A DNA stretch of 64,000 nucleotides from Actinomycetes bacterium. GTDB lineage: Bacteria > Actinomycetota > Acidimicrobiia > Acidimicrobiales > Acidimicrobiaceae. The translations under genes were made by a program, and so were the position numbers. The notes under the pieces were generated by a model. It did not search any database, had not been told where the DNA came from, and saw only the letters and a program-made list of their open reading frames with translations. The stretch lies in NCBI GenBank assembly GCA_021803345.1, contig JAJZLS010000024.1:55411-119410 (forward strand), written 5' to 3'. Numbering within the stretch: the first letter of the stretch is position 1; every line of letters begins with the position of its first letter. Shown in pieces: positions 17,028-35,324 of the stretch.

Positions 17028-19160
17028 ATGAAGCGTGTTTCTATTGACGTGGGTGGAACTTTTACCGACTGCCTGGTGCTCGACGAGCAGGGAAGGCTCC
17101 GGGAGTTCAAATCTCCAACCACGCCCACAGACCCCGTCATGGGGGTTCTCGACTCCCTAAACAAAGCGTCGTCAGCTTTCTCTCAGCCACTGAACAGCTT
17201 CCTCGAACAGGTGGAGATGCTCATCCACGGCACAACCCTGGCTATCAACACCCTCCTAACCGGACGCGGTGCCAAGACCGGGATGATAACGACAATGAAC
17301 TTCAGAGATGTAATCGAGATGCGCAGAGGCCTCCGCGACCAGGACGTATCAATGTTCGACGTATTCGTGCCGCCATATGAGCCGCTGGTTCAGAGAAGAT
17401 GGAGAATAGGGGTGCCGGAAAGGGTGCGATACAACGGAGAGGTAATAACGCCCCTTGACGAGAAGGAAGTCCGAGAAGCAGCGGAAAAGTTAAAAACCGA
17501 AGGCATCACCTCACTGGCCGTCTGCTTTCTCTACTCGTTCGTAAATAGCGCGCACGAAAAACGTGCCGCAGAGATCTGCAGCGAGGTATTCGGAACCGAC
17601 AGGGTAACTACCTCACATGAAATTCTTCCCGTCTGGCGTGAGTTCGAACGCTTCAGCACTACAGCAGTAAGCGCATATGTGCAGCCCGTTGTTGCAGATT
17701 ATCTGGGTCGCCTCCAGAACAGGCTTAATGAGGAGCACTTTGGAGGCAGCCTGCTAATGATGCTTGCAAACGGGCTTGTCCAAACGGTTGAGCAATGCCG
17801 CGGTAGGGCGGTATACTTGCTCGGCTCTGGACCTGCCGCTGCACCATCTGCCGCTCTCAATCTCTCTTCCCCCCTTGTGGGCAAGGACCTGATCTCGGTC
17901 GACATGGGGGGAACCAGCTTCGATATCTGCGCCATCAGGAAGGGTGAGATACCGATGACAACCGAGAGCTGGGTCGGCAACCACAGGGTTGCCATCAAGA
18001 TGGTTGACGTGCACAGTATCGGTGCGGGTGGCGGCAGTATCGCCTGGATAGATTCCCTCGGCTTACTTCGGGTGGGTCCCCAAAGTGCTGGAGCCGACCC
18101 CGGGCCGGCATGCTATGACCATGGGAGTGTTGAGCCGACCGTCACCGATGCCGATCTGGTGCTCGGCTACGTGCCGGCAGACTACTTTCTTGGCGGCTCG
18201 ATCTCCCTCTCTGAGGAAAGCGCCCGCCATGCCGTCGACTCGGTCGCAAAGCAACTAGACATGACAATCGAAGAGGCGGCCCAGGCGATCTTTGAGACGG
18301 TGAATGCTCACATGGCGGATCTGATCACTGAGGTGTGCACCCGGCGCGGTCTCGACGTTCGAGACTTCACCATGGTTGTGGGCGGCGGCGCAGGCCCGGT
18401 GCATGCCGCCTTCCTCGCCGATCAGCTCGGCATCGGAACGGTATTCGTGCCATCGGTCGCAGCCTTGTACAGCGCGTTTGGAATGCTTAGCATGGACTTA
18501 GGCAGGGACTTCGCCCGTTCGCACGTAGGTCGAGCCGACAAAGTTGACCCTGACCGAGTTGCGAGCCTCTACAAGGAAATGGAAGAGCAGGCTCTGTCCG
18601 AGTTCGCTCCACTGGGGATTGGGAGAGACCAGATAAATTTTAGCCGCACCGCCGAGATGCGGTACATCGGGCAATTTCATGAGGTGGAAGTGCCCATTTT
18701 GGAGGAGGAAACCACCACCTCAACCATTGAAAGAGCCGTCGAGGCCCTGCATGAGAGGCACCAGGACCTTTATAGCTTTGCAATGCCCTGGATGCCTGCG
18801 CAGTTCCTCACCTTCCGACTCCTTGCGACAGTTACCCGAGCGCCATTAGAGCTGCAGCGCTTGAAAAGCTCAGGCTCTAGTACCAGTGTAACTCTGAAAC
18901 GAACCCGTAGGTGCCTCTGGAAGGGACGCGAACTCGAAACTCCCGTCTATGACGGTGACTCGATGGGTGCCGGTACGATAATCGCCGGGCCGGCCATCAT
19001 AGAGGAAAAAACCACGACTGTAGTGATACCCGAAGGATTCATCTGCCAGGTCGACGATTTCAAGAACTATGTACTCAAAAAGGCTGACACCGCCTCTGAT
19101 GGAAAGACGTGGTCCGGTAATGGAAAATCAGGTAATTCGACTGAAGGAGAGGTACGATGA
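17028..19160 (+). CDS. hyuA: Hydantoinase/oxoprolinase A subunit
   Basis: A 710-residue member of the HyuA/5-oxoprolinase N-terminal family. The acetate-kinase-like ATP site begins IDVGGTFTDCLVLDE at residue 4. LISVDMGGTSFDICAI near residue 288 and VVGGGAGPVHAAFLADQLG near 450 are the other phosphate-binding segments. These enzymes cleave or carboxylate small N- or O-containing substrates with ATP, together with a HyuB partner whose gene overlaps by four bases (ATGA). GGGAGGG precedes the ATG. The substrate cannot be read from sequence. The E1 genes downstream and the aromatic genes of the island argue against a plain 5-oxoprolinase. Confidence 0.92.
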   Translation: MKRVSIDVGGTFTDCLVLDEQGRLREFKSPTTPTDPVMGVLDSLNKASSAFSQPLNSFLEQVEMLIHGTTLAINTLLTGRGAKTGMITTMNFRDVIEMRRGLRDQDVSMFDVFVPPYEPLVQRRWRIGVPERVRYNGEVITPLDEKEVREAAEKLKTEGITSLAVCFLYSFVNSAHEKRAAEICSEVFGTDRVTTSHEILPVWREFERFSTTAVSAYVQPVVADYLGRLQNRLNEEHFGGSLLMMLANGLVQTVEQCRGRAVYLLGSGPAAAPSAALNLSSPLVGKDLISVDMGGTSFDICAIRKGEIPMTTESWVGNHRVAIKMVDVHSIGAGGGSIAWIDSLGLLRVGPQSAGADPGPACYDHGSVEPTVTDADLVLGYVPADYFLGGSISLSEESARHAVDSVAKQLDMTIEEAAQAIFETVNAHMADLITEVCTRRGLDVRDFTMVVGGGAGPVHAAFLADQLGIGTVFVPSVAALYSAFGMLSMDLGRDFARSHVGRADKVDPDRVASLYKEMEEQALSEFAPLGIGRDQINFSRTAEMRYIGQFHEVEVPILEEETTTSTIERAVEALHERHQDLYSFAMPWMPAQFLTFRLLATVTRAPLELQRLKSSGSSTSVTLKRTRRCLWKGRELETPVYDGDSMGAGTIIAGPAIIEEKTTTVVIPEGFICQVDDFKNYVLKKADTASDGKTWSGNGKSGNSTEGEVR

Positions 19161-20944
19161 CTGAGACAGAGAGCGCTTTGGCTAAAGAGAGGACTGAGGC
19201 GGGCACCGACCCGGTAACGGTTGCCACAATCTGGCACTACCTGCAAACTTCCGCTCGTGAAATGCGACATATTATCGACCGAACTGCACAGAACTACCTG
19301 ATAAGTCAACTTCATGACGTGTCAGTAGGGATCTGGCTGGCCAACGGCGAAACCGTGGCGATGCCCGTCGGCCTACCAGTGCAGTTCCTGGGAAGCGGCT
19401 TTGCAGTCCGATCGATCATGGAGATCTTCGAAGGGGACCTGAACCCCGGAGACGTCATCCTCACCAATGACCCATACCACGGTGGACACAACTGCCATCT
19501 TCCCGACTGGGGCTTTTTCAGGCCTATCTTTTACAATGGAGAGCTGCTGTTCTGGACTCTGGCCCGTGCACACCAACAGGATACCGGAGGCTCCTTTCCT
19601 GGCGGATACTTCCCTAACGGCTACGACATCCATGCCGAAGGCCTGTGTATTCCGCCAACTAAGGTAGTCGACAAAGGGCAAGAGCGTACAGATATAATGA
19701 AACTGATCTGGAACAATGTCCGGTGGCCTCTTGGAACTCGTGTCGACAACTACGCAATGATCGCTGCAACCAAACGCGCTGAAGAGCGCATTGTCTCCCT
19801 AATAGACAAGTATGGAGTAGATACGGTTCTTGGCTGCGTCGGCGAGATGACCCGCCGTACCGAGGCCGCGGTTCGCGAGGAGATCCGCCGCATCCCGGAT
19901 GGCACCTACTCCGGCGAGTCCGCGACAGATGATGACGGCACCGAGTTGGACGAGCCTGTATGGGTGCGGGTTGATGTCACCATTTCGGGAGATGAGATGA
20001 CTCTCGACTTTTCCCGCTCGGAACTACAGCGTAAGGGCTTCATCAACAGCGTTTATGCGGCAACCTATGGAAATGCGGTAGCCGCAGCGATCATGATCTT
20101 TGATCCCGCACTAGCCGATTTCCATAACGAAGGCACGATCAGACCGATCCATGTAATCGCACCCGAGGGTCTGGTAGTCAACTGCCAGTACCCCGCAACG
20201 GTGGGTGCCTCGCCGGTAAACGTTGGAGTGCAGGTTATGGAAGCCGTCCTGGAGGCCCTTTCCAAGGCAGTACCGGAACGCTCAATCGCAGCGTGGGGAA
20301 AGCACCGGGGAGACTACGTCTTCGCTGTTGACCCCAGAAACGGTGAACGATACGTGCGAACCTCTTTCGACTATGACGGCAGTGCAGGAGCAGTCTGGGG
20401 CTACGACGGCTATGTAGCCGTGAGCTGCCTTACTACGATGGGTGCTGTCAATCGAGGCAACATTGAGGAGGAAGAGACCCGCCTTCCCTGGCTGATTAAC
20501 AAGTGGGAGCTGATCCCGGACCTCACTGGAGCCGGGCGATGGCGTGGAGGACCGGGCATCTATTGGGAGGCGGTCAACGAAGGAAGCGATGGTCAGATGG
20601 CTACTGGCAGCACCGACGGAGACGTCGTGCAAGGATTCGGCGCACAGGGTGGACTTCCCTCGCCCGTGAGCCGCTGCTATATCCGACGAGATGGGGAGGA
20701 CCTTCTCATCGCGCCACACCGCCTCGTCCCCATCAAGAACGGCGACGTGGTGATAAAAGTGAGCAGCGGCGGAGGGGGCGTCGGCTCACCGTTCATGCGC
20801 GATCCTAAAATGGTCCTTAAAGACGTGGTAAACGAGCTCGTGACCATCGAAGGAGCCCGAAACGACTATGGAGTGGTAATCGACCCTGACAAGCTCTCAA
20901 TCGAGCTGGATGCTACCTCAGCGCTTCGAGCCAAAGTGAGCTGA
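19157..20944 (+). CDS. hyuB: Hydantoinase/oxoprolinase B subunit
   Basis: A 595-residue HyuB-family protein, the partner of HyuA. The conserved HNCHLPDWG segment follows PGDVILTNDPYHGGHN near residue 105. GASPVNVGVQVMEAVLEAL near 355 and AGRWRGGPGIYWE near 460 are also typical. Acetone carboxylases, hydantoinases and oxoprolinases share this fold, so the reaction is ATP-dependent but otherwise open. It overlaps hyuA by four bases and is followed after three bases by a thiamine-dependent E1 alpha gene, which is an unusual partner for hyuAB. Confidence 0.92.
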   Translation: MTETESALAKERTEAGTDPVTVATIWHYLQTSAREMRHIIDRTAQNYLISQLHDVSVGIWLANGETVAMPVGLPVQFLGSGFAVRSIMEIFEGDLNPGDVILTNDPYHGGHNCHLPDWGFFRPIFYNGELLFWTLARAHQQDTGGSFPGGYFPNGYDIHAEGLCIPPTKVVDKGQERTDIMKLIWNNVRWPLGTRVDNYAMIAATKRAEERIVSLIDKYGVDTVLGCVGEMTRRTEAAVREEIRRIPDGTYSGESATDDDGTELDEPVWVRVDVTISGDEMTLDFSRSELQRKGFINSVYAATYGNAVAAAIMIFDPALADFHNEGTIRPIHVIAPEGLVVNCQYPATVGASPVNVGVQVMEAVLEALSKAVPERSIAAWGKHRGDYVFAVDPRNGERYVRTSFDYDGSAGAVWGYDGYVAVSCLTTMGAVNRGNIEEEETRLPWLINKWELIPDLTGAGRWRGGPGIYWEAVNEGSDGQMATGSTDGDVVQGFGAQGGLPSPVSRCYIRRDGEDLLIAPHRLVPIKNGDVVIKVSSGGGGVGSPFMRDPKMVLKDVVNELVTIEGARNDYGVVIDPDKLSIELDATSALRAKVS

Positions 20945-20947
20945 GAC

Positions 20948-21979
20948 GTGCTCCCCAACCTCGATAAGACCGATCTAATTGAGCTACTGCACAAGATGCT
21001 GCTCGTACGCAGATGGGAAGAGCGGCTTATAAGGCTCGCTGAGGAAGGACCCTCGTTCGGACACTATCACGTCTACATCGGCCAGGAGACGATCGGCATT
21101 CCTGCCCTCGCCGCATTGCGTCCAACCGACCTGATTTTCCCGACCCATCGCAACCACGGATACCTTCTCGGCCGGGACGCCAATCCAGGGAGGCTCATGG
21201 CTGAGATCCTTGGCAAACAGACCGGCCTCAACGGCGGCAAGGCCGGAACCCTTCATGCCTCGGCACCAGAACTTGGGATCCCGCATACCTCCGCCATCGT
21301 AGGAGGTATAGTTCCCATCGCTGCCGGTGCTGCACTCGCGGCCCAGTTGAAGGGAAGTGACCAGATATCGGTAGCTCTTTTTGGAGACGGAGCGACCGAG
21401 GAAGGTGCGACCTTTGAAGCATTGAACATCGCATCTTTATGGAGAGTCCCGGTAATATTTCTGTGCGAAAACAATACGGAGGAAGCTCTGGGGGCGGCAG
21501 CCGGAGGCTACCCAAAATCTGTCACCGCGGCCACCGATCTCGGCAGCATCGCTCGTTCAGTCGGCGTACCCGCAGTAGTTGTAGATGGTACCGACACCGG
21601 GGCCGTGTTTACCGCAATAAGCGAGGCCGCAGAACGTGCCCGGGCATCTGGCGGCCCTACTTTCGTGGAAGCTCGGGTCGTCCGCTGGCCTGGAAGCAAT
21701 CCTTTGTGGCCTCAACTTCCGTCGGGCGAGACGGAACTTAGCTTTGCCTGGGAACCAGAAGCGGCACCCGAGCAGCTTCTCCGATGGTACCGCGACCAGG
21801 ACGGACTATTAAGGTATCTGCGAGAGATGCTGAGTGCCTCCCTTCTCACTAAGGACGAAGCAGTAAAGATCGATTCAGAAGTCAGGTCCCAAGTTGAAGC
21901 TGCAGTGCACTTCGCTAGAAATAGCGCCTATCCGACCCCCGATTCGGCCTATCTTGACGTGTTTGCGAGGCAAAGCTGA
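20948..21979 (+). CDS. Thiamine diphosphate-dependent dehydrogenase E1 alpha subunit (pair 1)
   Basis: A 343-residue E1 alpha of the pyruvate/acetoin/branched-chain 2-oxo acid dehydrogenase family. HRNHGYLLGRD near residue 60 and the thiamine diphosphate motif GDGATEEG through LCENN (about 140-175) are in place. It begins with GTG three bases after hyuB; the ribosome binding site is weak, so it probably depends on coupling. The E1 beta gene overlaps its stop by one base. No E2 or E3 gene accompanies it here, so the acyl acceptor may be an unlinked complex or a non-lipoyl acceptor. The substrate is unknown. Confidence 0.9.
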   Translation: MLPNLDKTDLIELLHKMLLVRRWEERLIRLAEEGPSFGHYHVYIGQETIGIPALAALRPTDLIFPTHRNHGYLLGRDANPGRLMAEILGKQTGLNGGKAGTLHASAPELGIPHTSAIVGGIVPIAAGAALAAQLKGSDQISVALFGDGATEEGATFEALNIASLWRVPVIFLCENNTEEALGAAAGGYPKSVTAATDLGSIARSVGVPAVVVDGTDTGAVFTAISEAAERARASGGPTFVEARVVRWPGSNPLWPQLPSGETELSFAWEPEAAPEQLLRWYRDQDGLLRYLREMLSASLLTKDEAVKIDSEVRSQVEAAVHFARNSAYPTPDSAYLDVFARQS

Positions 21980-23025
21980 TGGAAATATCCGCAATTGACG
22001 TAGACCTGCAACAGTCTTCACGTCAGCCCGCAGACAGGGAACTTACTTATGCCGAAGCCTTGGTCGAGGCTATCGTGAAGCTGATGAAAGAAGATCCGGA
22101 CTTTCTCATCATCGGAAGCTATTTGCTCGGACTTGGACCAATGCGCACCTTATTCGACGCGGTACGCAATGAATACCCAAAGCGTGTGCTCGATCCTCCG
22201 ACCGCGGAAATCGGCTTCACCGGCTTCGGGATCGGCGCTGCAATAAATGGACTTCACGTCCTAGTTGATCTCAGCACGGCAAGCTTCATATTCGAAGCGT
22301 TTCCACAGGTAGTCAATGAGGCTGCAAACGCCAGTTACATGAGCGGAGGCAGACTCGCTGTTCCGATCATATTTCACTTCCTTCACGGGCTTCGCGGTGG
22401 AGGGGCAGCACAGCACTCCCATAGTCCTCAAGCAATGCTTTGGAACACACCTGGGCTTCAGATCATGATGCCCTCCTCTCCAGCTGACGTAAGTGGCTTG
22501 CTTCCCGCTGCGATAAGGAGTGGAAACCCGACCGTCTTCGTTGATCACTCGAAGCTGATGGCAATCCGCGGGTATGTACCCGCCTTGCCCAAAGAAATCC
22601 CGCTTGGCGTGGCAGACATCAAAAGGAGCGGGAAAGACGTCACTATCGTGGCGACTTCCTACTCAGTCCAACAGGCACTTTCTGCTTGCGAAGCACTGGC
22701 CTCGGAAGGCATCGACACCGAGCTTGTTGACCCGCGTACGGTTGTCCCATTGGACCGCCAAACCATCCTTGAATCAGTGGCCAAGACCGGCAGGCTCGTT
22801 GTCGTCGATGAAACGCACCGCAGCTGCGGCATAGCTTCTGAAATCGCTGCAATCGTAAGCGAGGAGATATTAGACGCACTCAAGGTCCCCATTATCAGGG
22901 TCACAGTTCCTGATGTACCGGTGCCGTTCAGCCCGGTACTGGAAAACGAACTCGATACTACACCGGAAAGGATTGCGGCTGCGGTCCGGACCCAGATGAC
23001 ACGAAAGCAAATCAGCCGTCCATGA
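21979..23025 (+). CDS. Thiamine diphosphate-dependent dehydrogenase E1 beta subunit (pair 1)
   Basis: A 348-residue transketolase-type E1 beta subunit. PPTAEIGFTGFGIGAAING near residue 75 holds the Glu that activates thiamine. HGLRGGGAAQHSHSPQA near 140 and the C-terminal LVDPRTVVPLDRQTI and VVVDETHRSCG segments are typical of the family. Its ATG overlaps the TGA of the alpha gene. With the preceding gene it forms a complete E1 heterotetramer. It is clearly different in sequence from the second beta subunit two genes on, so this is not a simple recent duplication. Confidence 0.9.
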   Translation: MEISAIDVDLQQSSRQPADRELTYAEALVEAIVKLMKEDPDFLIIGSYLLGLGPMRTLFDAVRNEYPKRVLDPPTAEIGFTGFGIGAAINGLHVLVDLSTASFIFEAFPQVVNEAANASYMSGGRLAVPIIFHFLHGLRGGGAAQHSHSPQAMLWNTPGLQIMMPSSPADVSGLLPAAIRSGNPTVFVDHSKLMAIRGYVPALPKEIPLGVADIKRSGKDVTIVATSYSVQQALSACEALASEGIDTELVDPRTVVPLDRQTILESVAKTGRLVVVDETHRSCGIASEIAAIVSEEILDALKVPIIRVTVPDVPVPFSPVLENELDTTPERIAAAVRTQMTRKQISRP

Positions 23026-23109
23026 GCATAGTGGCGCTCGCAGCCAAGCTTACTCTGTGATAACATTTCACCGCAAGACAGGTGGTCAGAGCTTAAGGAG
23101 CGGTTGGAA

Positions 23110-24042
23110 TTGCCTGAAGCCACGTCGGGACTCTTAGAGTTTTTTGATCATATCTCCAAAATAAGGGCCTTTGAAGAAGCCGTCGCAGAGGGATATCGCG
23201 ATCGCAAGCTTCCAGGGCTTCTCCATCTCTCCATGGGTTCGGAGGCTGCCGCTGTGGGGGTAATTGCCGCCTTGAGCCGTGGCGACAAGATATACTCTTC
23301 CCACCGTCCACATGGTCACTTTCTCGCCTCCGGCAGTGATCCAGCCAGCTTATTGGCCGAGCTTGCTGGCATGGAAGACGGGCTCTGTCGAGGACGGGCA
23401 GGCTCCATGCATCTGATGGACGATCGCACAGTGATGGCAACTGGGATCGTAGGAGGCACAATTTCCGTTGCCCTCGGTCACTCTTTGACTTTGGAACCCC
23501 CTTCAATCACGGTCTCCTTCTTTGGAGACGGGGCAGTTCAGACCGGCACCTTCCATGAGACAATGAACATGGCTGCCCTATGGAAAGCGCCGGTCGTTTT
23601 CGTCTGTGAGAATAACGAAATGGTTGAATTCAGCACACGCACAGAGCATACGCCCGTAGCAGACATAACCGAATACGGGCGACTGTACGGTATTCACAGC
23701 CAAAGGGTGGACGGCTGCGATGTCGAAGCTGTCTACCGGAGCTTCTCCGGGCTTGCTCAGAATGCAAGACAAAGATTAGGACCGGCCCTTCTAGTGTGCG
23801 ACATTTCACGGTTGCGCCCACACTATGAGGGCGATCTGCGCCGTCAGGAATCCGCCGTCGACCCCCTCGAAAAATGCATCTCCCGTCTAACACAGCTTGG
23901 CTGGCGCAGAGAGGAGCTGGAGAAACAACACGATCAAGCCGTCGCAAGTGCCAGAGCACTACTAGAATCAGTGCTCAAAAAGGGGATCCTGCCAAATCCC
24001 GCTGACGATACCGCCCTTGTTTTCAGAAAACCGCTGCCATGA
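23110..24042 (+). CDS. Thiamine diphosphate-dependent dehydrogenase E1 alpha subunit (pair 2)
   Basis: A second E1 alpha of about 310 residues. HRPHGHFLASG near residue 60, then the thiamine motif FGDGAVQTG through VCENNEMVE near 137-170. The start is a TTG. AAGGAG lies nine bases before the TTG at 23110 and only three before an in-frame TTG at 23104, so 23110 is preferred. It follows pair 1 after 84 bases and overlaps its own beta gene by four bases. This pair resembles acetoin-dehydrogenase-type E1 more than pair 1 does, but the substrate is not certain. Confidence 0.9.
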   Translation: MPEATSGLLEFFDHISKIRAFEEAVAEGYRDRKLPGLLHLSMGSEAAAVGVIAALSRGDKIYSSHRPHGHFLASGSDPASLLAELAGMEDGLCRGRAGSMHLMDDRTVMATGIVGGTISVALGHSLTLEPPSITVSFFGDGAVQTGTFHETMNMAALWKAPVVFVCENNEMVEFSTRTEHTPVADITEYGRLYGIHSQRVDGCDVEAVYRSFSGLAQNARQRLGPALLVCDISRLRPHYEGDLRRQESAVDPLEKCISRLTQLGWRREELEKQHDQAVASARALLESVLKKGILPNPADDTALVFRKPLP

Positions 24043-24998
24043 GGAACGAAACGTTAATACAAGCGGCACGCAACGGCCTAGCTGAAGCGATGAGGGCCGA
24101 CCCCCGAGTTATGGCACTCGGAGAGGACGTGGCAAGCGGTGGGCCGTTCGGCTTAACAAAGGGGCTCTCTGCTGAGTTTGGTACAAACCGTGTTCGCAAC
24201 ACTCCGATTAGCGAAGCTTCATTCGTCGGAGTTGGAATCGGCCTAGCCCTTGGAGGCGCGCATCCGCTCATCGATGTAATGTTCAACGACTTCCTCACCC
24301 TCGCAAGCGACCAGTTGTTCAACCATGCTGCAAAAATCCATTTCATGAGTGGGGGCCGATACTCGGTTCCCCTTGCAATCTGGACGGTTGGAGGGGCCGG
24401 CACGCGTTGGGGAGCGCAGCACTCGCAACGCTTTGACGGCTGGCTAAGCCAGATACCCGGCCTCAAGGTGGTCTCCCCTTCAAGTCCGGAAATGATGCGC
24501 AATACGATGAGGGAAGCACTCGGCGATCCAGATCCAGTGGTGATTCTTGTTGACAGGACTCTCCTCTATGCTCAGGTCGGACTCCCCGGTGACGACGGAT
24601 CACCCTGGGAAGCCAGGATTATCTCGGAAGGAGAGAGGGTCACAGTTGCTGCATCCGGCCGACTGGCTCACATGGCTCTGAAGTTTGCGCACACCCGTCC
24701 CGGAGAAATCGAGGTGATAGACCTTCAGCGACTCGCCCCGCTCGATGTCACTACTGTATGCAAATCGGTTGAAAAGACCGGCCGACTGGTACTTCTAAAC
24801 GACGAGGTTTCTACTGGCGGGTTCATCGCTTCTCTCGCCCTAGCAGTGTACGACCGTGCATACTGGCTGTTGGATGCTCCCATCGGTCATCTGACCTCAC
24901 CACCGACACCTGTCCCTGCGGCTCCCAGCTTGGAGGATGCATACATGATCACTAGCTCTGACATAGAAAGAGTGGTGCTGGAAACCTTGAACAGATAA
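24039..24998 (+). CDS. Thiamine diphosphate-dependent dehydrogenase E1 beta subunit (pair 2)
   Basis: A 319-residue E1 beta subunit. NTPISEASFVGVGIGLALGG near residue 52 carries the thiamine-activating Glu; GGAGTRWGAQHSQ near 117 and EVIDLQRLAPLDVTTV near 224 are family segments. The start ATG overlaps the upstream TGA. It is the last gene of the six-gene hyu/E1 operon, and no lipoyl E2 or dihydrolipoyl dehydrogenase follows. Downstream DNA is decayed mobile-element sequence, so a lost E2/E3 is one explanation for their absence. Confidence 0.9.
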   Translation: MRNETLIQAARNGLAEAMRADPRVMALGEDVASGGPFGLTKGLSAEFGTNRVRNTPISEASFVGVGIGLALGGAHPLIDVMFNDFLTLASDQLFNHAAKIHFMSGGRYSVPLAIWTVGGAGTRWGAQHSQRFDGWLSQIPGLKVVSPSSPEMMRNTMREALGDPDPVVILVDRTLLYAQVGLPGDDGSPWEARIISEGERVTVAASGRLAHMALKFAHTRPGEIEVIDLQRLAPLDVTTVCKSVEKTGRLVLLNDEVSTGGFIASLALAVYDRAYWLLDAPIGHLTSPPTPVPAAPSLEDAYMITSSDIERVVLETLNR

Positions 24999-26026: not shown

Positions 26027-26806
26027 CTACCTCGTAGCCCTGCCGGATATTCCCAAATTCGCCCCTGCCCTCGAGGCATACTCGATCATCTTCCGGCCAA
26101 TCTTCTCCGTATCGGTCAACCTGAACCTCACCGTCGGCATCGAAACGGAAAACGCGGCGATCTGCTTTCCGGTCCATGTCTTTACGCAGGCGCTTATAGA
26201 GACGAGACCTGCCTCGCTCTCCTCGAGGTTCAGGCCGAATCCCTGCTGTCGCGTCTTTTCGAGTTCCTTGATGAACTGGTCAAAACCGCTCATTACCTCC
26301 TTTGCGATGACGGACTTGTAAGAAGAGTAGAGATCAAAGACCTCCTCGTCAGAGAGACTACTGAGAAGAGCTTTTCCGCTCGAGGTCTTATGCGCGGGAA
26401 AGAGCCTTCCCGCTCGTGAGCTCACCCTGAAATCTCTGTTGGCCTCGGCGCTTCTCAAAAACCGTATACTGCACCCTTCGAGAACCACAAGGTGAGAAGT
26501 CTCGCCCAAGTCTTTTATAATCTCATCCAGCCAGGGCCCAAGCTGCTTTTCCAGCACCTTGTGAGTCTGGATGCTTCCCTCCCCCAGCCAGAAGAAAGCT
26601 GGACCACGACTGTACCTTCGGTGCGCAGCTGGAATGGCAAAGTTGCAGCTACACAGAGTCTTGAGCAACCTATGTGCACTCGAGGGAGCAATGCCAACTG
26701 CGTCGGCAACCTCGCTCACGCCAACGGTCTCGTTTTTCGACAGCATCATCAGCAGTTCGAGGGCATTTTCCACCGAACCGATCCCATATTTGCTCATTTT
26801 CTGCAT
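26027..26806 (-). CDS. IclR-family transcriptional regulator
   Basis: A 259-residue IclR regulator. The N-terminal winged helix (about 8-70) includes SVENALELLMMLSK and SEVADAVGIAPSSAHRLLKTL. The C-terminal effector domain carries HLVVLEGCSIRFL and FPAHKTSSGKALLS, then SISACVKTWTGKQIAAFSVSMP. IclR proteins commonly control aromatic and small-acid catabolism. The gene diverges from an MFS carrier across a 178-base gap, a common regulator/target arrangement. The start may be three codons later (MSKYG). The flanking hyu/E1 and hcr operons are candidate targets by position only. Confidence 0.92.
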   Translation of the reverse strand: MQKMSKYGIGSVENALELLMMLSKNETVGVSEVADAVGIAPSSAHRLLKTLCSCNFAIPAAHRRYSRGPAFFWLGEGSIQTHKVLEKQLGPWLDEIIKDLGETSHLVVLEGCSIRFLRSAEANRDFRVSSRAGRLFPAHKTSSGKALLSSLSDEEVFDLYSSYKSVIAKEVMSGFDQFIKELEKTRQQGFGLNLEESEAGLVSISACVKTWTGKQIAAFSVSMPTVRFRLTDTEKIGRKMIEYASRAGANLGISGRATR

Positions 26807-26984: not shown

Positions 26985-28439
26985 ATGCGCACTCAGCAAA
27001 ACATCGGTGATCCAGCCGATGAATCCGCGGCACGCGACGTCATAGCAAGACTGGACCGACTCGGTTCGTGGCCACTGCCGTATGCCTATCTCATCATCAT
27101 TGGAATAGGCTTTTTGTTTACGTTTTTCGATATCTTCGATATCAACGTCTCATTCATTCAGACCTGCATCGCCCTTAGACCGGGCTGTACGCCACAAACC
27201 GCGCTATCGTCGCTGTCGCTACCAGTCTTTCTAAACGTTGTGGGATACGTCGTAGGAACCTTGATCCTCAGCCCGATCTCCGACCGAATCGGCCGCAGGA
27301 ACATGCTTCTCATCACCATGCTCATAACGGCTGCCGGGTCGCTTTACACGGCATTAACGCCCGACTATACGAACTTCATCATCGCCAGAATTCTCACTGG
27401 AGTGGGAATAGGCGCAGACCTGGCCGTGGTCAACACCTATATAGGCGAGATCGCTCCCTCGAAGTCCCGGGCGCGATTTACATCGATCATCTTCATAAAC
27501 TCAGCATTAGGTGCGTTCTTCGCGATATGGCTAGGCCTTCTTCTCACCCAGCCTTCGTCGCCATGGCCCACCGGCCTTCCTTTCGCACTGGCGAGTAAGA
27601 CCTTTTCCGATGGGTGGAGATACCTCTACGGAATTGGTGCGCTCCTGGCCGTGATTGGAGTATTCATTCGATTTGAACTGCCGGAGTCGCCGCGTTGGCT
27701 AGTAGGCCAGGGAAAGATCGACAAAGCGAAGGCGATTGTACAAAAGATGGAATCCGTTGTCGAAAGAAGGGGCGAGACGCTCGCACCGGTTTTGCCATCG
27801 GTTGCAATCGAGAGCAAGCAGGTGGCCAAGAACCCGTACTCCGAGATCTTCTCGAATCCTCTCTACGTACGCAGGTTCATTATAATGGTCCTGACCTGGC
27901 TGATCGGGTACGTGACGGTCTACTCGTTTGCCGCAGGCTTCACCTCTGTGCTGACGTCGATTCACTATCCGCCTCCGGAGGCTGGCGTCATTGTTGCAGT
28001 GGGAACCATCGGCTTCATTGTCGGCTGCATCATCACCTCCACTTGGGGGGACTCGATTGAGAGAAAGTACTGGCTCCCAATAAGTGCCGTCATAACGCTC
28101 ATTGGTGGAATCTTGATCGCTACAGCTGGAACCGACTTGACGATCAGCTTTATCGGCTCCGGAGTGGTGTTCCTGGGATTCAATCTATGGGTATCGCCGA
28201 CCTATGCCCTGTCGGCGGAGTGCTTCCCCAGCCGGGCCAGAACAACCGGATTCGGACTTGTCGACGGCTTCGGACACATCGGTGGAGGAATCGGAATCCT
28301 AGTTATTGCTCCGCTGGTTCCAAAGATGTCACCAACGGGCGCTTTGTTACTGATCTGCGCATTCCTGATCGTTGCGGCAGTGATCGTGCAGCTTTCTCCG
28401 GCCACAAAAGGCAAAGACCTGGAGGAAGTCTCTCCGTAA
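26985..28439 (+). CDS. MFS transporter, metabolite:H+ symporter type
   Basis: A 484-residue, 12-helix major facilitator. The loop 2-3 signature DRIGRRNMLL (about residue 100) and its second-half equivalent GDSIERKYWLP are present, with RILTGVGIGADLAVVNTYIGEIAPSKSRAR between helices 4 and 5. AGGAGGGG lies just before the ATG. The pattern fits the sugar/metabolite porter branch, which includes carriers for aromatic acids and dicarboxylates. Its place between an IclR gene and the hydroxybenzoyl-CoA reductase genes suggests uptake of the island's growth substrate. The exact substrate is open. Confidence 0.9.
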   Translation: MRTQQNIGDPADESAARDVIARLDRLGSWPLPYAYLIIIGIGFLFTFFDIFDINVSFIQTCIALRPGCTPQTALSSLSLPVFLNVVGYVVGTLILSPISDRIGRRNMLLITMLITAAGSLYTALTPDYTNFIIARILTGVGIGADLAVVNTYIGEIAPSKSRARFTSIIFINSALGAFFAIWLGLLLTQPSSPWPTGLPFALASKTFSDGWRYLYGIGALLAVIGVFIRFELPESPRWLVGQGKIDKAKAIVQKMESVVERRGETLAPVLPSVAIESKQVAKNPYSEIFSNPLYVRRFIIMVLTWLIGYVTVYSFAAGFTSVLTSIHYPPPEAGVIVAVGTIGFIVGCIITSTWGDSIERKYWLPISAVITLIGGILIATAGTDLTISFIGSGVVFLGFNLWVSPTYALSAECFPSRARTTGFGLVDGFGHIGGGIGILVIAPLVPKMSPTGALLLICAFLIVAAVIVQLSPATKGKDLEEVSP

Positions 28440-28535: not shown

Positions 28536-28536
28536 G

Positions 28537-29735: not shown

Positions 29736-31004
29736 TCACCCCATGACGTGCACTACCCTCTTTGACTTCATCTCATTCGATGGCAATGAGCCACTCGGTA
29801 CGCATTGACAGTCAATGCGTACGCCGAAAGAGTGGCGAAGATCCAAGATGACTCTTTCAACAATTGAACTGTCACCGCCACGGGTCTCTATCATTAGACA
29901 GACCTCATCCATATGGCGAACCTTCTGATGGCGGATCTGAAAGTTGACTATCTCCGGGTAGCGTCTGAGCACCTCTTCCACCTGCGACGGGTAGAGGTTT
30001 ATCCCTCGCACCGTGAACATGTCGTCCACGCGTCCGCGTATTCCCCCGACTGCCTTGACAAACGGACTGCCACAGGGGCAGGGTTCGCGCGACAGCTCCA
30101 CGAGATCTCCAGTGCGGTAACGTATCACTGGAGAGCAGAAGCGACCAAGATTGGTGATCACCAACTCCCCCGTACCTTCGAATCTAGTCGACATAGGGTC
30201 AGCATCGGTTCCGACGGGGATGATCTCCAAGATGAACTCCGTCTCGACGAAGTGAACGCCGTCTCCTGCAGAACAAGTGAATCCCGTCGGCCCGACCTCA
30301 GTCATGCCCGTATGGTCATAACATTGTGCACCGAATGCAGTTTCAATTGCCTTCTTCGTTGCGGGGATGCTCGCGCCAGGCTCGCCAGCATGGAGCGTCT
30401 TGTGGATAGACGACTTCGACATATCGATGCCCATATCGTTGGCAACCTCTGCCAGTCGCAGCGCGTAGGTAGGCGTAGAGCAGAGCACCGTGGGCTCAAG
30501 ATCTCCGATGGCCAGAATACGCTGTTCCGAACTCATCGATCCGCCAGGGATCACCGTCGCTCCAAGCCTTTCGGCTCCGGCGTATGCGGACCAGAAGCCA
30601 ACGAAGGGACCAAAGCTGAAAGCGAAGAAGATCCTGTCCTCGCTTGTTATCCCAGCCCCCTTGAAGATGTGGTTGGCCCATATGCTTGTCCACCAAACCC
30701 ACGACTGAGCCGTATCCAGCCACCTGAGAGGACGTCCACCTGAGCTTCCAGAGGTCTGGTGAAGACGCACATAGTCGCGGAGAGGGTATGTGAGATTTGT
30801 CCCAAACGGAGTGTTTTCTTTCTGGTCTTCCACCAATTCAGCCTTGGTCAAAAAAGCCAGATCGTAGAAGTCATTCCAAGAACTCACGCCATGAAGGCGT
30901 GGCTTATAGAATCGATTTGAGGCCAGTAGCTTTTCCACACCAGCCTGCAGTTTCTCCAGCTGCAAAGCTCTTATATCGCCCTGGGAGTTAACTTTCGTGC
31001 TCAT
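29736..31004 (-). CDS. PaaK-like AMP-forming acyl-CoA ligase
   Basis: About 422 residues of the phenylacetate-CoA ligase family. The ATP-binding motif is TSGSSGGRPLRW near residue 85; CYDHTGMTEVGPTGF near 230 and YRTGDLVELSREPCPCGSPF near 320 are typical, with the C-terminal GRVDDMFTVRGINLYPSQVEE segment. The family activates aryl-acetates, benzoates and other aryl acids to CoA thioesters. The ATG at 31004 is preferred because the family begins there; an ATG 96 bases upstream adds unlike sequence. It follows hcrB on the same strand, so it may supply the aryl-CoA used by the reductase. Confidence 0.9.
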   Translation of the reverse strand: MSTKVNSQGDIRALQLEKLQAGVEKLLASNRFYKPRLHGVSSWNDFYDLAFLTKAELVEDQKENTPFGTNLTYPLRDYVRLHQTSGSSGGRPLRWLDTAQSWVWWTSIWANHIFKGAGITSEDRIFFAFSFGPFVGFWSAYAGAERLGATVIPGGSMSSEQRILAIGDLEPTVLCSTPTYALRLAEVANDMGIDMSKSSIHKTLHAGEPGASIPATKKAIETAFGAQCYDHTGMTEVGPTGFTCSAGDGVHFVETEFILEIIPVGTDADPMSTRFEGTGELVITNLGRFCSPVIRYRTGDLVELSREPCPCGSPFVKAVGGIRGRVDDMFTVRGINLYPSQVEEVLRRYPEIVNFQIRHQKVRHMDEVCLMIETRGGDSSIVERVILDLRHSFGVRIDCQCVPSGSLPSNEMKSKRVVHVMG

Positions 31005-31508
31005 CTGCCACCATCCTGGAAAAGCAAGGTCAGGTCTCGACAGCTCTTTGCCGATCCCAAACGGCGGCACTTTGAGCCGACGGGATCCCACCTTTTCCAT
31101 GTTCGGGCCAGCATTCCCGGCCTACTTGCACCAATGGCTGAGTTGATCATATGCATTTGATCATCCCCCAAACTCATATCTGGTCGTTCCTGCCACGCTA
31201 GAGATCCGGAGGTCTCTCTGCGTAGCTGGGAATTCCAATTAACCCGAGGGCGGCGGGTCCCCAAGACAGCAACTACATCCGCTGACCTCGCTTCTCCCGA
31301 TATCTGCTGCGCAAAGCTTGGGACACATCCACCCATCTCGGAAGATAGCAGCCTTGCAAACCGGCGCGCGAGACATCCAACTCCCTGAATTTTTCTCAGT
31401 TCAACACCTACGTTTCTTGACTCTTCGCTTTCAAGATTCTTCACACAGGCCACTTCCCACACTTTCAACTTTCCCACTTTATGCTGCTGCCCCAGTTGCC
31501 CTCGAAGA
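31005..31508. other. Gap between the ligase and hcrB, no supported gene
   Basis: About 500 bases. A 171-codon open frame on the minus strand (31001-31516) crosses it and overlaps the ligase start. It has no ribosome binding site, low-complexity charged composition and no recognisable family. I treat the region as spacer or decayed sequence. Confidence 0.5.
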
Positions 31509-32495
31509 TCATGCAACTTCTACGGCCTCCCGAATAGCCTGCTCGATCGCTCGGCGCATCATCCTTTTTCTCCATACGTAGGAGAGATCAGCGTTGTCAA
31601 GAGGCCGTGCGGGTTTAGCCGCTTCGCTGGCAACCTCCTCGAGAATCGCGGCATCGATCGCCTTGCCGAGCAACGGCTCCGCCGCCTGGCTCACGTCGAG
31701 TGGTTGCGGACCGACCGCTGTTATCACAATCCGGCACGCCTCGACCAAAGAGCCGTTCATGTGCACGGCTGCTGCAGCACCCACGAGAGGAAAATCGATC
31801 GAGCCGCGGCTCCGCACCTTGACATAGGATGACTTCCACTTCCCCGGCTCTGGCAGACGAAGGCTCACCAGAATCTCATCAGCCGCCTTGGTGATGTAGA
31901 ACTGACCGTCGTCCTGGTATAAAGAGGCGACGGGAACCTCGCGCTCTCCGTTCGGGCCGGCTAGCACTACCGTTGCATTCATTGAAATGGCAGCAGGCGC
32001 AGTATCCGACGAGGCGATGGCCCGACAGGTGGCACTGGCAGGTGCCACGCGGCAGATGTCGCCGTCCTTCTTCATGCAAAATCCGAGAGCCTTGCGCCAC
32101 TCGTAACTCTGGTCATAGTAGTTGCAGCGGGTGTCAACGCAGAGGTTCCCTCCGATTGTTCCTGAGTTTCGCAGTGCCGGCGAGGAAACCAAACCAGCCG
32201 CTCTCACATAGCCAGGATACGCGGATCGCAGAAGCGGGTTGGATACCACTTCGGTTAGAGTCACACATGCTCCGATTTCGAAACCGCCATCTCCTGTCGG
32301 GCGGATATGACGAAGATCGTCGAGATGCCCGAGACCGACGACTACCTCCGGCTCGATCTGGCCGCGCTTCATCTTTGGCAGGAGATCTGTTCCGCCGGCC
32401 ACAACTCTGGCCCTGGCTCCATAGTCTGAAAGGATCTGAACGGCCTCTGCGACAGACTCCGGCCGCAGGTAACTAAAACGGGGAAGACGAAGCAT
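31509..32495 (-). CDS. hcrB: 4-hydroxybenzoyl-CoA reductase-type FAD subunit with extra [4Fe-4S] cysteines
   Basis: A 328-residue FAD-binding medium subunit of the xanthine oxidase family. The flavin motifs are ARVVAGGTDLLP near residue 30 and RNSGTIGGNLC near 110. What identifies it is an insertion with four further cysteines at 124, 140, 148 and 157 (DTRC, GFC, DIC, ATC). This insertion is known in the beta subunit of 4-hydroxybenzoyl-CoA reductase, where it binds a [4Fe-4S] cluster, and is absent from CO and xanthine dehydrogenases. The gene overlaps hcrA by 23 bases and ends the molybdoenzyme operon. Confidence 0.88.
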   Translation of the reverse strand: MLRLPRFSYLRPESVAEAVQILSDYGARARVVAGGTDLLPKMKRGQIEPEVVVGLGHLDDLRHIRPTGDGGFEIGACVTLTEVVSNPLLRSAYPGYVRAAGLVSSPALRNSGTIGGNLCVDTRCNYYDQSYEWRKALGFCMKKDGDICRVAPASATCRAIASSDTAPAAISMNATVVLAGPNGEREVPVASLYQDDGQFYITKAADEILVSLRLPEPGKWKSSYVKVRSRGSIDFPLVGAAAAVHMNGSLVEACRIVITAVGPQPLDVSQAAEPLLGKAIDAAILEEVASEAAKPARPLDNADLSYVWRKRMMRRAIEQAIREAVEVA

Positions 32496-34845
32496 CGAAC
32501 GGAGGCACCTTTACAATAGACGGATAGGAAATTTTCGGGAAGTTCTTCGGTCCGTACCGGCCTTCACGTCCCTTGGCTTTCGCGTCAAGCGCTCGCATAA
32601 TCTTGTCTGGTGTAATCGGCACTTCGTCTACCCAGACGTCAAGAGCATCATGTACGGCGGAAGCCACAGCAGGAATCACTGGGAGCAGAGGGCCCTGTCC
32701 GACCTCCTTAGCACCGTAGGGACCCTCAAGATCAACCGTCTCCACCAGGAACGTTTCAACCTCCGGCATCTCAAAAAAGGTGAACGACTTGTAGTCCAGC
32801 ATCGAAGGCTGCTTGTGAAGGCCATGACGATAGAGCTGGGCCTCCATCATCGCCTCGCTCAAGCCCATGTATACGCCGCCCTCAACCTGGCCTTTCACAG
32901 CCAGAGAGTTGATCGATCTTCCTATGTCGTGTGCTATCCAAACCTTGTTCAGCTGGATCTCGCCGCTATATGGATCGGCGTCCAAGTCCGCTACCGCAGC
33001 GGAGTAGCTGTATGCAGGGCTTGGCCCAACGCCAGACGCCTTGTACCTTCCACCTATATTCGGCGGTGGGGCGTAACTGCCCCGTGTCGACAGGACACCA
33101 ACCTTTTCCTGGGCCAGTGTTGCAGCCTCTTCAAAAGTCAGCTCTCCGACCTTGCCATCTGCAACCATCACTTCTTGAGGGCTACACTCCATCTTCTCCG
33201 CGACTGCATCTACGAGAATATCGCGCATCTCGCGGGCGGCCTGCAGTGCTGCGTTTCCCGCCATGAACGTGACGCGCGAAGAGTACGAGCCTAGGTCGAC
33301 CGGAGCCAGATCCGTGTCACCACTTACGACCCTGATGTCGGTTGGCCACAGCCCGAGCTGCTCCGCCGCCACGGTAGCCAGCACCGTATCGGACCCCTGA
33401 CCGATGTCGGTGGCACCACAGTACAGAGAAACGCCTCCGCGGTTCACCTGGATGATGCACTCACTGTGAGGGAGCTTGTTCCAGTAGATAGGCAAGCCTG
33501 CTCCACACATATAGCTCGAAATGGCAAACCCCATGCCGTGGCCAAGACGCCTCTTGCGATTCAAGAACCCTGATGCCTCGATCACCCGATCGGTCACCTC
33601 TTCAATTCCGCACGAGGTGATCCGCAGATGATTCACTGTACGGGTATATGGCTTGACATAATTGCGTCGGCGCAGCTCCACGGGATCGAGGCCGATCTCC
33701 TGAGCGATCTTGTCAAGGTGCAGTTCTAGTGCAAACCGAGGCTGCGGAGTGCCGTGGCCACGCTTTGGGCCGCATGGAGCCTTGTTTGTGAAGACTCTAA
33801 CGCCTTCAAACCGATAGGCAGGGATGTTATACGTAGTCGTCTGAAGCGCTCCTGTATAAAGCATCGAAGCCGGACCGTACGATCCGTACGCGCCACCGTC
33901 CAGCGCAGTGCGGAAGTGCATGGCCATTATCTTGCCATCTTCGGAGACTCCTGTCCTCACCCACATCAGCACTGGATGACGTCCACGATGAACGTAGAAT
34001 ACCTCCTCGCGGGTGAGAGTGCACTTGACAGGGCGTCCGGTCACCATCGCCAGCTTGCAAACCGCCATTTCATGAGAGAAGGGGTCGGACTTCCCACCAA
34101 ACCCACCACCGTGCGGAGCAGCTACAACCCGTATGTGCCCCATCGGCATGTCGAACACTCTCGCCAACGCGCGGTGAACATAGTGAGGGTTCTGTGTCGA
34201 CGACCAAAGCGTCAATTTATCGCCCACGAAAGTGGCGATGGCAGAGTGCTGCTCCATGGGAAGGTGGGTGTTGCCCTCGTAGAAAAAGATATCCTCGCGG
34301 ATGTGGCTTGAGTTTTCGAAACCCTGATCTACGTCACCGAACTCCAGCGCGCCCATCCTGTGGATGTTGCCGGGTCCGGCGTAGTCGTGAATGGGTTCGT
34401 CGCTTGGAGGAAGCAATGCGTGCTCAATGGATTCAATGGCCTCCAACGGCTCGTACTCAATCTTGATGAGCTTACAGGCAGCCAGTGCAGTCTCCTCATC
34501 CACAGCCGCTACGGCGGCGACCGGATCCCCGACGAAACGAACCTTCTCGTTCTCGAGTGCATGCTCGTCTTGGCTGGTTGGCATAATGCCGTACTTTATC
34601 GGCAGATCGTCACCGGTAATTACAGCTGCCACGCCCTCCATCGCCAGCGCTGCGCTGGTGTCTATCGAGAGCACGCGAGCGTGCGGATGGTGGCTTCTCA
34701 GTAGCTTGCAGTAGAGGGTATTGGGCAGCTCCATGTCGTCGGTATAGGCGGTCAGCCCCTTCAGCTTTCCAACCGCATCCACCCTCGGAAGCGACTTTCC
34801 GACCACCCGCAGATCCGAACTCGTCTCATTGACCACGTTAGTCAT
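32473..34845 (-). CDS. hcrA: 4-hydroxybenzoyl-CoA reductase-type molybdopterin subunit
   Basis: A 790-residue large subunit of the xanthine oxidase family. The hammerhead domain starts SLPRVDAVGKLKGLTAYTDD. Molybdopterin motifs include APHGGGFGGKSDPFSHEMA near 250, RGHGTPQPRFALE near 365 and GATDIGQGSDTV near 478. In Thauera and Rhodopseudomonas this enzyme dehydroxylates 4-hydroxybenzoyl-CoA to benzoyl-CoA. Oddly, the position of the catalytic Glu in the C-terminal G-x-G-E motif reads VGQGP (Gln717). It overlaps hcrC by four bases and hcrB by 23. Another hydroxylase of the family cannot be excluded, but the hcrB insertion favours this assignment. Confidence 0.87.
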   Translation of the reverse strand: MTNVVNETSSDLRVVGKSLPRVDAVGKLKGLTAYTDDMELPNTLYCKLLRSHHPHARVLSIDTSAALAMEGVAAVITGDDLPIKYGIMPTSQDEHALENEKVRFVGDPVAAVAAVDEETALAACKLIKIEYEPLEAIESIEHALLPPSDEPIHDYAGPGNIHRMGALEFGDVDQGFENSSHIREDIFFYEGNTHLPMEQHSAIATFVGDKLTLWSSTQNPHYVHRALARVFDMPMGHIRVVAAPHGGGFGGKSDPFSHEMAVCKLAMVTGRPVKCTLTREEVFYVHRGRHPVLMWVRTGVSEDGKIMAMHFRTALDGGAYGSYGPASMLYTGALQTTTYNIPAYRFEGVRVFTNKAPCGPKRGHGTPQPRFALELHLDKIAQEIGLDPVELRRRNYVKPYTRTVNHLRITSCGIEEVTDRVIEASGFLNRKRRLGHGMGFAISSYMCGAGLPIYWNKLPHSECIIQVNRGGVSLYCGATDIGQGSDTVLATVAAEQLGLWPTDIRVVSGDTDLAPVDLGSYSSRVTFMAGNAALQAAREMRDILVDAVAEKMECSPQEVMVADGKVGELTFEEAATLAQEKVGVLSTRGSYAPPPNIGGRYKASGVGPSPAYSYSAAVADLDADPYSGEIQLNKVWIAHDIGRSINSLAVKGQVEGGVYMGLSEAMMEAQLYRHGLHKQPSMLDYKSFTFFEMPEVETFLVETVDLEGPYGAKEVGQGPLLPVIPAVASAVHDALDVWVDEVPITPDKIMRALDAKAKGREGRYGPKNFPKISYPSIVKVPPFDASSSPF

Positions 34846-35324
34846 GCCATGAACCTCCCAGCGTCCTCAACGGCCTCAATGATGCTAGCGTATCCAGTGC
34901 ACCTGCAAAGATTTCCCGAGAGAGCCTCTTTGATCTCTTCTCGGGAGGGCACAGGATTGGACTCGAGAAGTGCTACGGAGCTGAGGATCATTCCAGGAGT
35001 GCAGTATCCGCACTGCAGAGCCCCGTGGTCCATAAAGGCCTGCTGCACCGGGTGTAGCTCAGATCCGTTAGTGACACCCTCTATAGTAGTAATCTCGCTG
35101 CCCTCGATCTGACCCGGAAGAACGAGACAGCTCAACTGTGGAACCCCATCTATGAGCACCACGCACGTACCGCATTCTCCAGCCTCGCAGCCGTGCTTGG
35201 TCCCTGTGAGTCTCAAGTCTTCACGGAGAATTTCCAGCAACGTTGCGTAGGGCTTTACCAGCAGTTCGTGACTGCGCCCGTTGACCGAGAGCTCTAACAC
35301 CTCGCGGCTGCCAATGCTTCCCAT
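34842..35324 (-). CDS. hcrC: 4-hydroxybenzoyl-CoA reductase-type [2Fe-2S] subunit
   Basis: A 160-residue small subunit with two [2Fe-2S] centres. The plant-ferredoxin-type cluster is GCEAGECGTC followed by a Cys in LSCLVL; the second is CGYCTPGM and LCRCTGY. Length and spacing match HcrC and related small subunits, and all eight cysteines are intact, unlike the coxS relic 9 kb away. It is the first gene of hcrC-hcrA-hcrB-ligase on the minus strand. No strong promoter was identified in the 1.1 kb upstream, which is partly decayed. Confidence 0.9.
   Translation of the reverse strand: MGSIGSREVLELSVNGRSHELLVKPYATLLEILREDLRLTGTKHGCEAGECGTCVVLIDGVPQLSCLVLPGQIEGSEITTIEGVTNGSELHPVQQAFMDHGALQCGYCTPGMILSSVALLESNPVPSREEIKEALSGNLCRCTGYASIIEAVEDAGRFMA

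Follow-up and report, generated by a model that had tools for sequence, protein, structure and literature searches.

What could an ATP-dependent, hydantoinase-like enzyme be doing in one operon with two thiamine-dependent E1 components? This question is raised by a six-gene locus, in which hyuA and hyuB are followed by two E1 alpha/beta pairs, in a 64,000-nucleotide stretch of contig JAJZLS010000024.1 from an Actinomycetes bacterium (this whole stretch is referred to as the window). In the present study, the locus was compared with its relatives, and herein we propose that the operon might encode an ATP-dependent hydrolase of cyclic amides that supplies a two-E1 oxo-acid unit, with the lipoyl E2 and the lipoamide dehydrogenase (E3) borrowed from elsewhere in the genome, a reading to which we assign a probability of roughly 0.4. 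The recurrence of parts of the gene set in unrelated bacteria points to an undescribed breakdown pathway, in which hydrolysis, deamination, the nature of the acceptor and that of the substrate are all inferred.

Organization and conservation of the operon

The operon comprises the following genes.

17028..19160, + strand: hyuA, ATP-binding large subunit of the hydantoinase/oxoprolinase family, 710 amino acids (Pfam Hydant_A_N, Hydantoinase_A, Hydant_A_C)
19157..20944, + strand: hyuB, metal-binding subunit, 595 amino acids (Pfam Hydantoinase_B)
20948..21979, + strand: E1 alpha of pair 1, 343 amino acids, GTG start (Pfam E1_dh)
21979..23025, + strand: E1 beta of pair 1, 348 amino acids (Pfam Transket_pyr and Transketolase_C)
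23104..24042, + strand: E1 alpha of pair 2, 312 amino acids, TTG start (Pfam E1_dh)
24039..24998, + strand: E1 beta of pair 2, 319 amino acids (Pfam Transket_pyr and Transketolase_C)

The first-pass annotation described a six-gene operon at these positions, and the operon is confirmed as real and exactly placed by the positions of the open reading frames (ORFs) and by Pfam, with the expected domains above the gathering cut-off in all six genes. In gene order, the junctions are a 4-base overlap, a 3-base gap, a 1-base overlap, a 78-base gap and a 4-base overlap. The start sites were inspected in the sequence, and the gap before the second pair, previously given as 84 bases, exists but has that length only with the second TTG of E1 alpha 2 (23110); it measures 78 bases with the first TTG (23104), where the congener locus L034 has ATG. 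The description of two complete and clearly divergent E1 pairs was also borne out (approximately 29-33% identity between the pairs), as was the absence of E2 and E3 from the locus, since none of the ORFs of at least 100 amino acids in 10000-32000 resembled a lipoyl E2 or an E3 when inspected by eye. Gene spacing alone suggests joint transcription of the six genes, since promoter-like and terminator-like matches in 16000-26100 showed no excess over shuffles.

The genus sample consisted of ten genomes, including that of the window (G000). A HyuB ortholog of at least 90% identity is present in five of these genomes (G000, G001, G002, G006 and, at a contig end, G005), and E1 alpha 1 is present at 78% or more in four, all of which also have HyuB. 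All six genes occur in three genomes, G000 included, and are interrupted by a contig edge in a fourth: L032 (G001) and L035 (G002) are complete and in the same order, and the contig of L034 (G006) ends within E1 alpha 2. UbiD and phosphoenolpyruvate-utilising genes (Pfam) flank L032, fatty-acid genes (by eye) flank L034, and the ORFs of L032-L036 include no match to the IclR, MFS, PaaK and molybdenum proteins encoded beside the operon in the window. Thus, as the congener flanks differ, the six genes stay together apart from the flanking genes of the window. The ratio of nonsynonymous to synonymous substitution rates (dN/dS) between the window and L032 is 0.095 for hyuA, 0.020 for hyuB, 0.061 for E1 alpha 1, 0.087 for E1 beta 1, 0.129 for E1 alpha 2 and 0.093 for E1 beta 2, and the six genes are under strong purifying selection (0.02-0.13); dS was saturated in the comparison with G002. 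The same order in three congener loci with differing flanks, together with the low dN/dS, places the six-gene set beyond chance.

Family assignment of HyuAB

The best NCBIfam match of HyuA is CapA, at 613.8 bits against an equivalog cut-off of 1000, and that of HyuB is CapB, at 349.4 bits (equivalog cut-off 1000), both lower than required for a caprolactamase. The phosphate and adenosine motifs of CapA-type ATP sites set out in the available part of PMC8453981 (DxGGTxTD, DxGGT and GxxPGP) are present in HyuA at residues 7, 292 and 355. In HyuB, Asp54, His114, Asp117 and His139 are identical in all 12 clade rows of alignment A3, and an Asp-His-Asp-His metal site is predicted by their spacing, which matches the CapB metal ligands at 41/99/102/124 in the same part of PMC8453981, rather than by an alignment with CapB.

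In the available part of PMC5214803, the hydrolase (Hyd) branch is characterized by two subunit genes only, in the order hydAB, and by the absence of a gamma subunit. The contiguous hyuA-hyuB order of the window has this form; the hyuA-hyuB-E1 run leaves no space for a gamma subunit gene, and no adjoining plus-strand ORF of at least 100 amino acids was seen by eye, with no search aimed at PF08882. Because of this order without a gamma subunit, and because the best curated match is caprolactamase and not Apc, HyuAB fits the two-subunit hydrolase branch rather than the carboxylases. The first-pass annotation had allowed for a carboxylation product, and HyuAB could be imagined as an ATP-dependent ketone carboxylase, with the E1 unit acting on the carboxylated product. 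HyuAB does belong to the same superfamily as Apc and Acx, and the doubled hyuA/hyuB genes in L117, L121 and L219 recall the Apc gene set; however, no gamma subunit gene was found, the subunit lengths of 710 and 595 amino acids agree with Hyd and not with Acx, and HyuA scores 326 bits for ApcC and 223 bits for ApcA versus 614 for CapA. Carboxylation by HyuAB is thus not supported, and we regard it as very improbable.

Distribution of the HyuAB clade and its linkage with E1

A HyuB scan of genome contigs yielded at least 80 loci. Among the matches listed, 13 loci show 57-97% identity (one of them, L110, is G001 itself) and the next shows 37%, and the HyuB of the operon belongs to a distinct clade set off by this gap. 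In three of the eight source genomes searched, the copies at E <= 1e-150 number 10 (G450), 9 (G456) and 7 (G455). Among 396 genomes drawn from the phylum, HyuB at E <= 1e-100 was found in the genome of the window alone, the HyuB-holding congeners not being among the matches. Plasmid carriage was considered and rejected, as no PLSDB record has a best place reaching 60% identity to E1 alpha 1, HyuA or HyuB, and no relative was found in a viral-contig scan with E1 alpha 2. As a separate observation, Corynebacterium glutamicum plasmid p48A (L030, 8920-16036) carries an IclR gene, hyuA (42%), hyuB (36%), two hypothetical ORFs and an acetamidase/formamidase-family gene.

Outside the known congeners, 36 loci of the HyuAB clade were scanned, among them L115 (HyuB 87%, guanine-plus-cytosine (GC) content 0.70); the positions behind the locus counts come from tblastn, and many of the contigs are short, which makes absences weak. 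An E1 of the pair-1 type is present in 16 of the 36 loci. Ten of these were fetched by HyuB (L111, L112, L113, L115, L119, L120, L216, L219, L220 and L227; in L112, E1 alpha stands alone at the contig end) and six by E1 (L289, L290, L298, L323, L324 and L325), so that the fair figure for the linkage is 10 of 30 HyuB-fetched loci. The titles of these ten include Actinomycetes, Rhodospirillaceae, Betaproteobacteria and Deltaproteobacteria among others, and the link occurs with tight spacing, in either gene order and in several E1 lineages. The possibility raised by the first-pass annotation, that the adjacency is unique to this genome, can therefore be set aside, as the linkage is recurrent.

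The neighbours in the 36 loci include UbiD in nine, TctC/TctA/TAXI transport genes in 18, a molybdenum enzyme in seven and a lipoyl E2 in one; the neighbour queries were drawn from L111, L113, L117, L118 (= L211), L214, L216, L218, L219, L227 and L298, which match themselves by construction. Sampled neighbours confirmed by Pfam are UbiD, TctC, TAXI-like NMT1_3, IclR, xanthine-dehydrogenase-type, DMSO-reductase-type and acetolactate-synthase-like ThDP (thiamine diphosphate) enzymes. The last were observed near HyuB, where E1 pairs stand elsewhere, in L214 and L117 (Pfam) and in L116 (by eye). L113 has a pyrogallol-hydroxytransferase-like large subunit and a RidA-family gene as neighbours, and an aminotransferase-like ORF lies immediately 3' of HyuB in L220 (by eye); the RidA-family gene and the aminotransferase-like ORF fit an amine-releasing pathway.

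Motifs and phylogeny of the two E1 pairs

Both pairs carry the features of ThDP-dependent E1, that is, GDG..NN in alpha, retained in both window proteins, and the active-site Glu and His of beta, which have catalytic roles; the window proteins score below the NCBIfam E1 cut-offs. The pairs differ in the E1 alpha loop, the His of which (GHS/GHY type) is expected to matter for lipoyl acylation. This His is present in all 13 aligned pair-2 rows, the loop reading RGHY in most pair-2 proteins and RPHY in the window, and is absent from 47 of 48 aligned pair-1 rows (L320 is the exception), which have WPGS or similar. E1 alpha 1 of the window shows the clade motifs THRNHG and RWPGS and lacks the loop His.

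An E1 beta tree of 83 rows was built with LG+G4 without a mixture, L031, L037 and L039 having been dropped before the build. The pair-1 proteins form one 53-row clade that includes E1 beta 1 of the window (support 100/100). The quartet pair-2 proteins except that of L113, in which the first E1 pair is of another type, form a 15-row clade including E1 beta 2 of the window (98/96). The tree carries a long-branch warning, which covers the join of the pair-1 clade to L090, L091 and L095. The presence of HyuAB beside E1, mapped on this tree, requires at least 10 changes, nine of them forced by starred branches, compared with a shuffled mean of 21.6, and none of 500 shuffles was as low; the link is thus clustered yet repeatedly gained or lost. 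A dedicated E1 clade for HyuAB, suggested by a first tree in which all 13 pair-1 rows stood beside HyuAB (100/99), was withdrawn: the loci had been HyuB-fetched or were congeners, and E1-first searches found many HyuAB-free members, so that the exclusivity was a sampling effect.

E1-first survey of relatives

With the E1 beta 1 profile (A5, E <= 1e-100), matches were found in 31 of 35 genomes of the order of G454 (titled Deltaproteobacteria where a member is named), in one of 300 genomes of the order of G456 (G456 itself) and in 11 of 98 genomes of the G456 family. The G454 order has 63 pair-1 places listed, of which 36, mostly the top ones, were read (L289-L322 new, L120 and L227 known earlier). 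The HyuAB clade is present at five of the 36 (L120, L227, L289, L290 and L298), and the other 31 lack it; L321 carries a HyuAB of another family (30-36%) and was excluded from the count. A second E1 pair, giving a quartet, stands at 12 of the 36, one interrupted by a contig end, and the quartet recurs without HyuAB. For the G456 family, 10 of the 25 listed places were read, with HyuAB in seven; since four of the seven had been HyuB-fetched, the fair figure is three of six. L119, which matches an eleventh place of this family (G802:C244), carries HyuB too.

The pair-2 profile (A6), run over the same 35 genomes of the G454 order, gave 22 strong places (>540 bits), of which 11 lie within 3 kilobases of pair 1, that is, in quartets. 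Nine of the remaining 11 were read (all except G854 and G846); four stop at a contig edge on the side where pair 1 might stand, and five are lone. No E2 was found in L349-L357 with the E2 of the window's genome as query. A lone pair 2 occurs in five genomes (L349-L353), and these loci have several flanking ORFs in common; in L349, the pair follows menaquinone-biosynthesis-like genes (by eye).

These counts bear on the possibility that two independent functions share the operon by regulation or transfer, with HyuAB acting on one compound and the quartet belonging to another pathway. Pair 1 or the quartet stands without HyuAB at most of the places read in the G454 order, 20 of the 36 HyuAB-clade loci (many on short contigs) show no E1, and pair 2 is also found alone; against this, several E1 lineages show the link to HyuAB, with tight spacing and in either gene order. 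We consider such independence quite unlikely.

The acceptor of the E1 pairs

The first-pass annotation suggested a non-lipoyl acceptor and named routine linkage of the E1 pairs to E2/E3 in relatives as evidence that would count against its reading. E2 linkage exists but is rare, a lipoyl E2 being found at two of the 36 places read in the G454 order and at none of the 10 read in the G456 family. L289-L322 were scanned with the L094 and L097 queries, and the HyuAB-clade loci with the E2 of the window's genome. In L298, pair 2 and pair 1 are followed by a protein with lipoyl and acyltransferase domains, and the HyuAB clade lies 3 kilobases from this quartet; in L316 (8021-9958), a single frame contains E1 beta 1 together with lipoyl and E2 catalytic domains, which may reflect either a true fusion or an error of assembly. 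The E2 parts of the two are 78% identical, both also lack the loop His in pair 1, and L316 is the nearest row by path to E1 beta 1 of the window outside Actinobacteria. Of all the evidence, these two loci speak most strongly against a non-lipoyl acceptor as a general feature.

The genome of the window (2.65 Mb, 90 contigs) contains five E1 alpha loci by search with E1 alpha 1, two in the operon and one each on C36, C22 and C82. PF00198 was found at two places, one being a lipoyl E2 on C23 and the other a 1284-amino-acid frame also with Transket_pyr, taken as the oxoglutarate enzyme, and the one lipoamide dehydrogenase above cut-off adjoins the lipoyl E2 on C23. The whole-genome search thus places E2 and E3 away from the operon and, as none of the five E1 loci is on C23, the E1 genes of this genome stand unlinked as a rule. 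The missing E2 is a feature of the locus and not of the chemistry. As a further observation, another E1 pair of this genome lies in L037 (2211-9292), where inspection by eye showed neighbouring genes resembling those of hydroxyisobutyrate dehydrogenase, amidohydrolase and aldehyde dehydrogenase, and no E2.

The idea of the first-pass annotation can be put as E1 pairs working without E2, which would cleave a 1,2-diketone or an oxo acid and release a free acid or an aldehyde; cyclohexane-1,2-dione hydrolase is a model for such E2-independent cleavage. It would agree with the lack of a detected E2 in 35 of the 36 HyuAB-clade loci, with the lost loop His of pair 1, with an acetolactate-synthase-like ThDP enzyme standing directly 5' of HyuB in L214 and 2 kilobases 3' of it in L117, as if replacing E1, and with the E1 pair of L037, directly after which comes the aldehyde-dehydrogenase-like ORF (by eye). 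However, a lipoyl E2 directly follows the same quartet in L298 and L316, and the genome of the window has both E2 and E3. A non-lipoyl acceptor is therefore not supported, and we consider E2-free action somewhat unlikely.

Proposed pathway

Under the proposed cyclic-amide hydrolase reading, HyuAB would hydrolyse a cyclic amide (lactam, imide or ureide) at the expense of ATP, HyuA phosphorylating the amide oxygen and the metal site of HyuB opening the ring. Upon loss of nitrogen, the ring-opened product might become a 2-oxo acid or a 1,2-dicarbonyl compound, which the E1 quartet, as two ThDP heterotetramers, would cleave or decarboxylate, and the acyl group would be passed to the single housekeeping lipoyl E2/E3, supplied in trans.

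Several results weigh against this proposal. First, the activities are separable, considering the HyuAB-clade loci without E1 and the pair-1 places without HyuAB. Second, UbiD, found in a quarter of the HyuAB-clade loci (9/36), is not in the window operon, and the operon contains no deaminating enzyme. Third, a lipoyl E2 stands in a single HyuAB-clade locus outside the congeners, and none was seen by eye around the operon, either in the window or in the three congener loci read. Finally, the lost loop His of pair 1 could mean a different reaction, though the E2-linked L298 and L316 are alike in this respect.

A bolder version would make the quartet a two-stage ThDP machine: pair 1 would catalyse the initial C-C cleavage once a nitrogen heterocycle has been opened, and pair 2 would complete the processing of the acyl fragment and transfer it to lipoyl E2. 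Together with ATP-dependent ring opening by HyuAB, this would amount to oxygen-independent heterocycle degradation in uncultivated bacteria. It builds on the His loss of pair 1 across phyla, the ordinary loop of pair 2, the new HyuAB clade and the UbiD and molybdenum hydroxylases in relatives, and we offer it as a speculative and rather improbable extension.

Flanking genes in the window

The operon lies in a GC-rich stretch (16000-36000, 0.51-0.58 versus approximately 0.475 on both sides), which also contains the following genes.

26027..26806, - strand: IclR-type regulator, possible regulator of the stretch (Pfam)
26985..28439, + strand: MFS transporter, possible uptake gene (Pfam Sugar_tr, MFS_1)
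29736..31100, - strand: PaaK-like acyl-CoA ligase (NCBIfam PaaK, 201 bits, below cut-off)
31509..35324, - strand: three-subunit molybdenum hydroxylase of the xanthine dehydrogenase / 4-hydroxybenzoyl-CoA reductase family (NCBIfam, all below cut-offs)

No tRNA was found in the window, and 15000-38000 contains no inverted repeats and no direct repeats of more than 26 bases. The molybdenum and FAD subunits of the hydroxylase match 4-hydroxybenzoyl-CoA reductase best, and the iron-sulfur subunit matches glyceraldehyde dehydrogenase gamma best (190 bits); against 4-hydroxybenzoyl-CoA reductase, the scores stay under the cut-offs (molybdenum 797/994.55, FAD 290/404.55, iron-sulfur 182/257.8 bits). 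We infer that the PaaK-like ligase and the hydroxylase may be pathway members. Xanthine-dehydrogenase-type hydroxylases also occur in three HyuB-clade loci, L211, L212 and L226 (28-30% to the window molybdenum subunit), and these enzymes would permit a route in which a nitrogen ring is hydroxylated before it is opened, but the congener loci have no such molybdenum genes next to the operon.

Elsewhere in the window, a second GC-rich patch (58000-62000, 0.54) carries ArsR-rhodanese-like, sulfide-quinone-reductase-like and LmbE-like deacetylase genes (by eye). HyuB-family places at E <= 1e-30 number ten in the genome, which is high for 2.65 Mb, and contig C89 bears two hyuAB sets that recur on G001:C178.

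Significance and comparison with known systems

The statement of the first-pass annotation that no described system has this layout holds within the literature searched, mostly by title and abstract opening and with few subscription journals, in which no description of HyuAB with E1 pairs was found; searches of the same scope on resorcinol/hydroxybenzoquinone, UbiD with hydantoinase, acetovanillone and indoleacetate gave no matching operon. If the operon is one pathway, it would link two enzyme classes that no literature found connects. If the proposal is true, it would also assign a function to a HyuAB clade that reaches 7 to 10 copies per genome in three of the eight searched, as well as to the paired-E1 arrangement occurring in several bacterial groups. 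Moreover, the lack of an adjoining E2 does not necessarily make E1 genes E2-independent, a point of importance for annotation.

The acetone and acetophenone carboxylases belong to the same superfamily, and HyuAB differs from them in lacking their third (gamma) subunit and in its subunit lengths. The E1 components of pyruvate dehydrogenase-family 2-oxo acid and acetoin dehydrogenases are alike in the alpha/beta E1 and the ThDP motif, with E2 linked in L298 and L316, whereas the operon has two tandem pairs, unlinked E2/E3, an altered pair-1 alpha loop and NCBIfam scores below cut-off. In anaerobic indoleacetate degradation, IaaCE is a hydantoinase-like enzyme that opens the lactam of 2-oxoindoleacetate with ATP, encoded in a ring-degradation cluster with a CoA ligase (available parts of PMC8453981 and PMC8360864); the ATP-dependent enzyme and the nearby CoA ligase are alike, and the available parts mention no E1 genes. 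By eye, no benzylmalonyl-CoA mutase or dehydrogenase gene was recognised among the window ORFs near the operon. How such an enzyme may act is illustrated by CapAB of Pseudomonas jessenii, in which, according to the available part of PMC8453981, lactam ring opening depends on ATP and bicarbonate, CapA carrying out the activation and CapB the metal-assisted ring opening. HyuAB resembles CapAB and the hydantoinase/oxoprolinase branch in the hydAB order, the ATP motifs and the predicted Asp-His-Asp-His site, and differs in its scores of 613.8 and 349.4 bits against cut-offs of 1000 and in its separate HyuB group (57-97%, then 37% among the matches listed). Unlike CapAB, the HyuAB clade is partly linked to E1, UbiD and tripartite transport genes.

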